Made by a program: the position numbers and the translations under genes. DNA of 22,424 nucleotides from Parachlorella kessleri (Eukaryota > Chlorophyta > Trebouxiophyceae > Chlorellales > Chlorellaceae): assembly GCA_001598975.1 (NCBI GenBank), contig BBXU01002587.1:1-22424 (forward strand), given 5' to 3'. Below, piece by piece: positions 9,101-15,100 of the stretch. How positions within the stretch are numbered: the stretch's first letter is position 1; each line of letters begins with the position of its first letter. A model generated the notes under the pieces. It was not told the origin of the DNA. It was given only the letters and a program-made list of their open reading frames with translations, and did not search any database.

Positions 9101-12100
9101 GCACGCTGCCGAGCATGGAGTCCAGCTTGGAGGCGGTCGTTCCCGGCACCGAGGGGTCAAACATCACACGTTCCCCCGTCACACCCTCCAACCCCAGCTG
9201 CCGGTGAAGGCCCTGCTGCCACTTGATCCTGCAAGCGTCATGACACAAACTGGGCGACCCTTGGGGCAGGAAGGTCCTTAATGCAACATGGCTTACAGAG
9301 GCCAGCACCGGAGCACACTTTCATCGTGCATGCTGCTTGCACGGCTCCAAACCTGCTAGCCGTGCACACTCGGCTGTTCTGCCTGGCGGGCACATGCAGG
9401 ACCTTTCACACATTGTCTCCGCCTACTGCGGTCATCCCCCCACCCAGCAAGCTGGGACTCACTCAAAGTAGTCAGAGGCACATTGTAGCCGCCTGCGGGC
9501 CCTGGAAAGCCTGGCCATGAAGTCAGCCACTGGATCCGGGTGCCCATCCTCCATAGGAACAGCAGCAGGAGTCACATCTGGGAGCCTCCAGGGGCTGGGG
9601 GCAAACTCCACAACACGGAGGGTGGGAGGTGGGGCCACCCGCTCCACAGCATCACGGTTCACAACTGTAATCACCTGCAGAGGACGGTGGGCAGTGGGGA
9701 GAGTTTGGATAATGTTGGAGCAGTTCTGCTAGCTACCAAGGCAGTGCAGCAGCGCTATCTCGCAAAGAGCCACAAGGCCGCCTGTTCAGACTTCCTTCAG
9801 GTCGTCTCAGTCAAGCGCAACAGTCCAACTGAGCTTGGTATGGTATCTTGATATTTAGGTAACGGATGAGCCCTTCCCCACAGGCATTTGCCATGGAGCG
9901 ATGTCCACCAGAGTTACTTGGTTATGGTGGCAGGTCTGCTGACTGTGAATTGACCAGGCCATGAACACAAGGTGTCCTGGACGCAGGCTGCCTGGCTGAT
10001 GTAGTCAGCCTGATTTGCCTACTATCAGACTTAGCTTAGAAGCAGGCTTTCCCTACAGGATGCAACAGACTAAATGGGGTCCATGGAACTGAAGGGAGGT
10101 GCCACCCTAGCACAGACCAGGCTTGGGAGCCTGATGGATGCCTTGTGCCCAAGGAGTATTCCGCGCTGCCTGGCACCAGCGTGAAGTGCATGAAGTGGCT
10201 GGTTCCATGCTGGCAGCCCCAGCAGTATTGCGGCAGGCACTCACCAGCAATGAGGCCTGGGGCGAGATACAGGACGTATCAGGACATGTTTACAGTGACC
10301 ATACCAGGAAACTCTGTGCTGAGCCGAGATGCGACCCTCTGCTGCCCCCCAGCATTTCTGTAGTGTTTCAAATGCCAACATAGCCTAGAGCCACGGAAAG
10401 AACGCTGCATACAACCTAAGCGCCGCACAGGCACAACAGAAGCCACTTCCATACCGAGGTCCAACCGAAACAACAGGCCCCACAAGAAGGCAGACGGTGC
10501 TATAATCTACTAGGAATACAGGTAAGAAACCAATAGTGAAGGAAGTAGTCTAATCAAATTGCTGGCATTACCAAAATATGGGCAAACCCAAGGCGCTGCA
10601 ATATGCACTACACCTTGAGCACCCGAATGGCACAGGCGTCAACACAGTTGGTAAGTCTGCACCTTTGCCAGTGCTCGTGCGTGCACCACCAAGGCCTCCG
10701 CGGGTCAAGGAGGGAGCATCGATACATCTAGCAGAACTGCCCACGACGTGCAAACTCCGACGTCGCCGCTGGTGTACTGAGCCCAGCGGGGAGGGCAGAA
10801 GCCTCAGTGCTTCAACAAAGGCACGATAGCTTCGTCCCATAGATATTTGCCAGTAAAGAAGTCCAACATTAACCGTGCCTTGCTCCGTGGTGCTGGTTGC
10901 TTGCCCTGTGCAAGAAGAACAAAGACTGGTTGCTGGACAGTTGCTGCAGGAGATTACCCGAGCGCTCTGTAGCAGATCAAGACGCCAGCTCAAAGTGCCC
11001 TGGATGACATACCTGTATACTTGGATCAACAGAGCCTTCTTGCAGCCCCAGTTGCCTTTGTCTCTGGTGGCTCGCATAGAGCAGCACTGCAGCTACCACC
11101 GCGGACAGCCCCGCAAGGACGAACCGCATGGGACATACCATGTCTGCCTATACAGCAAACTGCCAACAGAGGTTGGTGCACCAGCCGTCTCCCACAGCAA
11201 CAATGTATGATCAAGGAGGGCGCCTCAACGACGAAAATGACTTTCACTCTTTGGCCTAGCTACAACGGAGAGGTCTCGAGAGCAGTTCTTTGCTGTGGAT
11301 GATGCGGCGTGTAGGTCAAGCGCTCGCCACGCGTCAGCTTGGAAGCTGTGCTTCCCAGCAGGCGCGGCAGCAGATACCCTGCCGATCCCTAATCGCTGCT
11401 ACAACACTATACCACTGCTTTCGCTAGAACCCGATTCTATTGCGTCGAGTGGGTGTGAGCAATGCAGGGCACGCTGCAGGTACCATCTTGCACTGGACGG
11501 CATTTACAAGCGCGTGCATGTTTGACACCTAGCCAGCACCCGGTAGCGAGCCTCATAGGCACCAGGCCAGCAAGGTACCATGCCCAGCGAATGTCTGTTA
11601 CCAGGGCGGTACGGCAACAGCAGGTTAGTGCACAACCTGCTATTGTTTTGGTCCGGCTACATGAGGACGTCAGCTATTCTCGGTGCCAAGGTTAAGATAT
11701 CTGTTACCCAAGCAGGTAGCAGCAGCAGCGGCGGCGCCGGCAGCACCTGTGGCAGCGGAGCAAGAGATGCAGGTGGTTGAGGTCGACCTGGGGGACCGAA
11801 CTTACCCCATTTATATAGGCAGCGGCCTGCTGCAGCAGGGCGAGCTTCTTCGAAAGCACATCCCCGGCAAGACGGCCCTTATTGTCACAAACGAAACAAT
11901 TGCCCCTTTGTATCTAGAAAGGTATGGGCTGCGAGTGGGTTGCCCCGAGCGCGTTTGGTTTATCCAGCCGGCTGGCTGACTGGTGGTAACATCAGGGAGC
12001 TTCCAAGCCCCTTCAAGCCGTTCACTCCAGCCTGCACAGTTCTTTTCCCAACGAGGCTTTTTTGATTAGATTGCCAGCTGACTCAGTACGCTTGCTGTTC

Positions 12101-15100
12101 CTTTCCATGCCGCTGCGCCCCTCTTGCCAACTCTATGCCTGGCTGCCGCTGGCAAATTGGCCCCGTCTCCCTCACGCTCCCCCTGACCTTCTCCCTATCC
12201 GCAGGTGCCTTGACGCAGTTACTGAGGACGGCCGTGTGAGGGCAGAGGTGGTGGTACTGCCTGATGGCGAGCAGCACAAGAGCCTGGAGGTGCTAGCCAA
12301 GGTGTGGGATAAGGCGCTGGAGGCGCGGCTCAATAGGGACACCACTCTGGTAGCGCTGGGCGGCGGAGTGGTTGGAGACATGACCGGATTTGCTGCGGCA
12401 GCCTACCAGCGGGGGGTCCACTTCATCCAGGTGCGCTGGTGGACTGTGTGTATAGCGGTGTTGGGCAGGAGGGCTATATTGGACATGCTATAGGGGGATC
12501 ACATGGAAAGGGATGAGGTCATGGCCTAGTCTGCAACTTGTTCAACTTGGTCAAGCCAAGGTGAAAGGGGGAAGGGCAAAAATGAGTAAAGGAGCAAGGA
12601 AGGCTGTGGCGGCACATATGCAGGCTCAGCACCTGCTCAACATGTCCAACAGCTTGTGCTCAACTAGGCCAGTGCAGGATGCAGGGATCCGCGGTTCTGC
12701 AGCAAGGCTGGCCAGGGACTGCTACTCACGGTGGGCACTCATGCATGCCGTGCGCATGAGAGAAGAAACCCAGCCATGCTGCGTGCGGCGTGTGCAGGTG
12801 CCGACCACCGTGATGGCGCAGGTAGACTCCTCGGTCGGCGGCAAGACTGGCGTGAACCACCCGCTGGGCAAGAACATGATTGGTGCGTGGGGCCAGGCGG
12901 GCCGGCATCTGCGTCCATGCTCTGAAGGGCGGTGGTGTTCTTGCCACACTTTGAGGATGGCTTCAAGTGCTGGCATGCCACAGAAGCAGGGCAGCGGGCT
13001 GCATCAAACTGTCTGGCTTGGCTGCAGAAAGCTTGGCTGCAGAAAGCTTGGCTGGCTGGAAAGCTGGCTGCTGGGCATGCTAATACCCTGTCAACCCTGC
13101 GAGTGAGGCTACAGGCTCTTGGCAGTGCTTGCGCTGCTGCAGGTGCCTTCTACCAGCCACTCTGTGTGCTAATCGACATTGAGACCCTCAGAACACTGCC
13201 AGATAGGGAGCTGGCCTCGGGTATCTCAGGTAGGCCCTGACTGTGGATGTGACTGCTGTATGTCCTGCTGACTGCACCGCATGAGGGGCCACAGTTAAGG
13301 CCTCGGGATGGGCAGACGGCACCCCAAGGTAGGCCACACGAGGTCGCCACCGAAGGATGAGGATCGACAGCAGCGTCTGCTGCCTTCGTGTCCTTGGAGA
13401 AAATCACCTAAACCCTGGACCTTGCCCACCTGCTCTGGGTTGCAGTGAAGCGGTACGGCACCCTGACATCCATGCTTCTCGTGCTGTGCAGAGATCATCA
13501 AGTATGGGCTAATCCGAGACGCGCCCTTCTTCGAGTGGCTGGAGCGGAATGTTGACAAGCTGTTGCAACGCGACCCAGAGGTGAGCCAGACCACCCGGCT
13601 GTGAGTTATTCCCCATCCATCTCATCAACCCCTGTCATCTGCGCCCGCTGAGCAAGGCAGAAGGGTGGGTGCAGGCAGGTGGCACCGCCTCATTGCACTG
13701 CAGCCGCCCGACGTGCCAGTGCCCCTTGTGCTCCTTGTCTCAGCCAAGTCCCCGTGCAACCTCCACAACTATATGTGGTGCAGGCATTCACCTATGCCAT
13801 CCAGCGGTCGTGCATCAACAAGGCAGAGGTGGTGGCAGCAGATGAGAAGGAGGGCGGAGTTCGCGCCTCGCTTAACCTGGGGCACACCTACGGCCACGCT
13901 ATCGAGACTGCCAGCGGCTATGGTGAGCCAAGGTTGGGGTTTTATGACTATTGACAATCGAGCTGCATGAGCTGAAGGAGTGCCCCTAACCCCCCCCCCC
14001 CTCTCTGCATTTAAGTATTATATACCTGCCTGGCCTGAATGGTGTCCTTTCCCACGCCGCAAATGAAACCCATGGTGTTGGTTCCCAAACGCCTGACATA
14101 ACTACACGGCCCTGCGGGTCTGCCTCACTGCTTGCTCAAGGGCCCGGCACCGCTGGTCATGCTGTGCAGGCACCTGGTTGCATGGGGAGGCGGTGGCAGC
14201 TGGCATGGTGATGGCGGCGGACATGTCACACCGGCTGGGCTGGATAGATGCCAGCTTACTGCAGCGGACGCGGGCGCTCGTTGAGATGTGCAAGTTACCA
14301 ACTGGCCCGCCCAAGGTGCGGAGGCTGTGCATGAAGCACGCGTGCAGCAATAGTTGCACCTTTGCATGCCCTGCTTGTGCTTGTTAGGACAGGTATTGGG
14401 TGGGGGTCTGTTGGTAGGTAAGCAAGTACCAGCCATGCAGCTTGGTGCTTGCGGATGGCAGGGCTGACCGTGAAGCTGGAATACACCACAGTAGGTCAGA
14501 GCGCTCTTGTGGCTGGCAAAGTGGAAACCTGATGGTATTGAATTCCCGCTGCCCCCCCTGCTTTGCAGGGCATGTCCCCGCAGCAATTTTTGGACTTGAT
14601 GGCGGTTGACAAGAAGGTGCTGGACGGCCAGCTACGGCTGGTGCTCCTCAAGGGGCCGCTGGGCAACTGTATGATCACCTCAGACTTCCCGCTGGCCACA
14701 CTGAAGGAGAACCTGGACTCCTTCTGTCAAGCCTGAGTGGCCCTTGCCTGTGCATTTCCTTTAAGCCAAGGATCTGCCTTCTGGGAGTGCTGTTGTGAAG
14801 GGTCATTTTCAGCTGTGGAGCAATAGACCACGTGAAACCCCATACGCTTGCTGCGAGGAACAGGAGGGGTGGCCAAGCCAACCGTGTGTTGCCCTCAAGT
14901 CGTTACTGGAGGAGCAGGCACGGAGGATGGTAACATGTTCGGGAAGAGACTACTAGTATAATGGTTGAAAACGTTTAGGGCATGCTCACCTTGGCGTTGA
15001 GGTTGGCCTCCAGCGCGCGTATGTTGGCCTCCATGTGGGACTGGCCCTGGTTTGGGCGGATGTTGGCGGGGGAGGCAGTCATGCCAAAGATGTGGGGGCG

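Follow-up and report, generated by a model that had tools for sequence, protein, structure and literature searches.

The sixth intron of the Dicer gene of Parachlorella kessleri is, in all likelihood, one long cis-spliced intron that holds two complete, divergent genes, one for a 3-dehydroquinate synthase on the antisense strand and a small one on the sense strand (Table 1). The exon joint, the strength of its splice sites, and an open reading frame for each of the three genes can be read from the sequence itself, and Dicer, the synthase, and the small gene most likely represent three independent transcription units. Dicer would be transcribed through the whole block, the 5.3-kb intron would then be spliced out, and the two guests would be driven by their own promoters, both presumably carried by the 320-bp spacer between them. 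This arrangement does not require silencing and the shikimate pathway to be functionally tied. The window, that is, the whole stretch of DNA that was analyzed (22,424 bp), is an entire contig (C1344) of a 50.86-Mb genome assembled in 1,642 contigs.

Table 1 Coordinates of the Dicer gene, its sixth intron, and the genes nested within it
Feature	Positions	Strand	Basis
Dicer exons 1-6 (DEAD helicase half)	14990..16826	-	Gene model; PF00270 at residues 64-228 of the joined protein
Dicer exons 1-3	16826-16605, 16454-16311, 16138-15968	-	Gene model
Dicer exons 4-6	15776-15717, 15509-15470, 15111-14990	-	Gene model
Dicer intron 6, 5,315 bp, phase 0, GT-AG	9675..14989	-	Gene model; splice-site ranks
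Gap from synthase stop to Dicer exon 6 donor, 253 bp	14737..14989	.	Gene models
3-Dehydroquinate synthase, 9 exons, 435 residues	11462..14736	+	Gene model, Pfam, relatives
Synthase exons 1-5	11462-11623, 11716-11921, 12205-12430, 12798-12882, 13143-13229	+	
Synthase exons 6-9	13492-13580, 13784-13922, 14170-14315, 14569-14736	+	
Spacer between the head-to-head guests, 320 bp	11142..11461	.	Gene-model coordinates
Second nested gene, 2 exons, 76 residues	10804..11141	-	Gene model; relative P0001
Small-gene exons	11141-11013, 10905-10804	-	
MHFTL, first coding exon of public model N2152v2_003174, inside intron 6	10177..10191	-	Weak donor
Dicer exons 7-27	54..9674	-	Gene model; identical to P0002; gene goes on in contig C1343

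The Dicer model, read on the minus strand from 16826 to 54, consists of 27 exons with 1,665 stop-free codons and 26 GT-AG introns. Exon 27 is truncated by the contig end, position 54 being a chosen stopping point beyond which the frame is open, and the remaining exons are found on contig C1343, with the next one at the very end of that contig (match to position 46,385 of 46,422). The joined protein matches PF00270 (DEAD), PF00271 (Helicase_C), and PF03368 (Dicer_dimer), all above the cut-offs, as well as ResIII; the RNase III domains lie outside the window, with PF00636 and PF14622 annotated on the public P. kessleri Dicer protein, the C-terminal part of which is encoded on C1343. An earlier note, made from the sequence alone, had placed Dicer exons on either side of the synthase, ending at 14990 and resuming at 9674, with a phase 0 junction on both sides and a joined protein of Dicer type. 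The exon ends are in the sequence as described, the gene model bears out the phase, and the Dicer-like nature of the protein agrees with its open frame, its domains, and the alignment across the exon 6-7 joint, where seven of nine homologues, two of which (P0004 and P0005) are from one species, show no gap within 15 residues. Among the other two, the Bryopsis Dicer shows a gap of four residues that opens four residues past the joint, and the Chlorella vulgaris model (P0006) lacks 12 residues from one residue past it; the latter gap suggests that a later acceptor was picked in that gene model and, hence, that C. vulgaris may have an intron at the same place.

Several other features of the locus and the genome were recorded. 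A DEAH-box RNA helicase gene (about 17391-22166, plus strand) is located head to head with Dicer, and the PDB entries nearest to a 184-residue piece of it are those of a putative pre-mRNA splicing factor and of DHX8. Dicer intron 13 contains, at about 6200-6400, an apparent head-to-tail repeat of about three copies (GTGGGACTGCAAATGGC...), identified by eye. Searches of the genome for Piwi (PF02171), ArgoN (PF16486), and RdRP (PF05183) yielded no match, in an assembly that may be incomplete and with exons that are short; for ArgoN and RdRP, the control genomes gave no match either. In Chlorella and Coccomyxa, Dicer and Argonaute are each described as single-copy (PMC4014436).

Intron 6 stands apart from the other 25 Dicer introns, each of which is 134 to 526 bp long, compared with 5,315 bp. 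The previous reading that these introns are all far shorter therefore stands, with its maximum of 525 bp corrected to 526. Going from exon 7 to exon 6, the intron comprises a first stretch of 1,129 bp, the 338-bp small gene, the 320-bp spacer, the 3,275-bp synthase gene, and a final 253 bp. Splice sites were scored with models trained on 33 introns of Dicer and the synthase, with intron 6 left out. The donor at 14989 ranks first among the 292 GT dinucleotides between 15111 and 9675 (score, 11.93; runner-up, 10.72), and the acceptor before 9674 ranks first among 381 AG dinucleotides (score, 10.91; runner-up, 10.20); the margins are small for both.

The coding spans of both guests, 11462-14736 and 10804-11141, are wholly contained within 9675-14989. 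The complete nine-exon synthase that had been claimed on the strand opposite Dicer was found as described: its eight introns measure 92 to 367 bp, and both of its domains are complete, with nearly end-to-end matches to PF01761 (E = 3e-50, positions 2-114 of 115) and PF24621 (E = 1.5e-50, positions 1-144 of 144). Membership in this family points to 3-dehydroquinate synthase activity. The best relative among the matches listed shows 82% identity over 83% of the synthase. P. kessleri does not appear by name among the 120 relatives listed of 7,999, most of which are nameless, so that this carries little weight, and a scan of viral contigs with the synthase found no relative.

The small gene, overlooked in the earlier note, is on Dicer's own strand, head to head with the synthase, and Dicer transcripts must therefore read through its 3' end, a point against a single long host intron. 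Its donor scores well (9.53) and its acceptor is weak (5.89; training range, 5.4 to 14.2). The genome search located the gene at this locus only. The sole relative of the small protein that was found, P0001, comes from a 1,495-bp contig and matches the whole query (E = 1.2e-16, 49% identity). The two proteins are nearly identical at both ends and differ by an extra stretch of P0001 that starts with KVS and ends with LLQ, which reads as if an intron at the corresponding position had been left unspliced. Searched against Pfam, the small protein matched no family up to an E value of 1, and four PDB matches (E = 0.044 to 0.47) were taken as chance. The protein may resemble short land-plant proteins annotated as methyltransferase related.

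N2152v2_003174 (P0002), the Dicer model annotated publicly for P. kessleri, bears directly on how the two halves of Dicer are to be read. The protein of exons 7-27 is 100% identical to it over 85% of the query, the DEAD domain is not listed for it, and it begins within intron 6, at MHFTL, the codons of which occur at a single place in the window (10191-10177). Taken at face value, this model would indicate two genes, with the DEAD half stopping after exon 6 and the other half starting from an intronic promoter, or a DEAD-less Dicer made besides the full one; a stop after exon 6 would also accord with the frame, which ends after four further residues if intron 6 is retained. We nevertheless consider both versions improbable. 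At 3.05, the MHFTL donor has a lower score than any of the 33 training donors (3.4 to 12.3), and it ranks 41st of the 292 GTs, against first place for the exon 6 donor; furthermore, without the rest of Dicer, the DEAD half would form a helicase deprived of its second half, whereas the best other algal Dicer models (P0003 to P0008) carry the DEAD domain and the remainder in a single protein. The truncation of the public model at intron 6 is thus probably an annotation error, and the MHFTL start is best taken as a prediction forced by the gene on the opposite strand. Domain surveys relying on this model would wrongly score the P. kessleri Dicer as DEAD-less. The published P. kessleri genome is described as 62.5 Mb, derived from 454 reads, with genes predicted by GeneMark-ES (PMC4724957); a second assembly goes unmentioned in PMC10916037.

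Misassembly, in which the synthase block would have been wrongly joined into the Dicer contig, has to be considered given that the locus comes from a single one of the 1,642 contigs, yet it appears very unlikely. The public protein, encoded on a 3,067,154-bp contig, includes the MHFTL codons, so that assembly, which may not be wholly independent, shares the sequence that precedes exon 7, at least as far as 10191. Moreover, no second copy of either flank was found: in DNA searches of the genome, 14737-16850 and 9675-11461 match only themselves. All 26 matches listed for the public Dicer protein are on C1344 and C1343, with 23 of 37 candidates scored, so that a weak extra copy is conceivable. 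The synthase span was searched genome-wide as the family PF01761, not as DNA, and gave two matches, both inside the window. These self-matches, together with the confinement of PF01761 to the window, led us to reject a mobile or duplicated segment. Less probable still, to the point of being scarcely credible, is a split Dicer, the halves of which would be transcribed apart and trans-spliced. Such joining is documented for several Giardia genes transcribed as separate halves, including that of a p68 helicase (PMC5224939), but here the halves are in order, on the same strand, and 5.3 kb apart, and ordinary splicing is enough. A single long intron with two resident genes thus is the reading that we retain.

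Enlargement of intron 6 by insertion, as the earlier note had suggested, is likely but unproven. The proposal of an inserted segment bearing the synthase remains plausible, except that what was inserted would have been a divergent pair of genes rather than a single gene. Both guests would have entered a pre-existing intron on one DNA block, in the Parachlorella lineage; the alternative is an older nesting that was lost in other lineages. Retrocopies are expected to be intronless; the synthase has eight introns and the small gene has one, so neither is a plain retrocopy. Among two lists of 120 proteins, only two species have both proteins under one prefix, and in each the genes are on contigs that differ in length within one assembly: 225,460 and 533,882 bp for Dicer and the synthase in Elliptochloris bilobata (prefix WJX81) and 1,397,703 and 3,628,164 bp in Bryopsis sp. 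(prefix BSKO). Hence, green algae do not all share the nesting. A search for an insertion scar in 9600-15150 identified seven short direct repeat families and three inverted pairs, none of which flanks intron 6. The nearest of them, a 20-nt imperfect inverted pair (80%) with arms at 14997-15016 in Dicer exon 6 and in synthase exon 3, was taken as chance.

The proximity of the three genes raises the question of interference. Nested genes can provoke exonization, intron retention, and early polyadenylation in their hosts (PMC3192792; PMC13309782), and in the mammalian H13/Mcts2 pair, transcription of the nested gene leads to early polyadenylation of the host (PMC13309782). By analogy, the guests could drive early polyadenylation of Dicer; Mcts2, however, is imprinted. 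We regard actual coupling as improbable, whether through antisense synthase transcripts that would reach Dicer exon 6 and form double-stranded RNA with Dicer transcripts or through nested promoters that would bring about premature ends or a Dicer devoid of the DEAD domain. If such coupling does occur, an RNA-silencing enzyme would be tuned by a shikimate-pathway gene inside its own intron. The position of the small gene on the same strand and the 253-bp gap between the synthase and exon 6 make these effects testable. In the related algae Prototheca and Helicosporidium, no motif is more overrepresented ahead of poly(A) sites than UGUAA (PMC1868727); downstream of the synthase stop, TGTAA first occurs on the plus strand at 15156, beyond Dicer exon 6. 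This hint that the synthase 3' end might lie beyond that exon is only a lead: TGTAA was dropped as a 3'-end marker because its frequency in the window is at the chance level (8 versus 9.9 expected on the plus strand and 11 versus 10.1 expected on the minus strand). For the host, the locus is a natural test of expressing a long gene whose intron has a gene on each strand and whose product processes double-stranded RNA.

Genes nested in introns are a well-known arrangement, to which the P. kessleri case adds; it stands out by its host, by the presence of two genes in the intron, by the tenfold length of that intron, and by the truncated public model. No report of nested genes in Trebouxiophyceae was found in the open-licence literature, earlier reports elsewhere being possible, and the best matches there contained none that placed dehydroquinate synthase beside Dicer, a nested gene, or an intron. 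In Drosophila, 2mit is located in the 11th intron of tim2 (timeless2) in the opposite direction (PMC3786989), as is the synthase within Dicer. In a human survey, 23 of 74 host genes had two or three nested genes, and 94 of 104 nested genes were potentially noncoding and single-exon (PMC3192792). The passages at hand from that survey do not state that such guests share one intron, whereas in P. kessleri two protein-coding genes appear to occupy a single one. Unlike both the Drosophila pair and the human nested genes, the case described here combines a green algal Dicer as the host with a guest itself split by eight introns and a second gene alongside.
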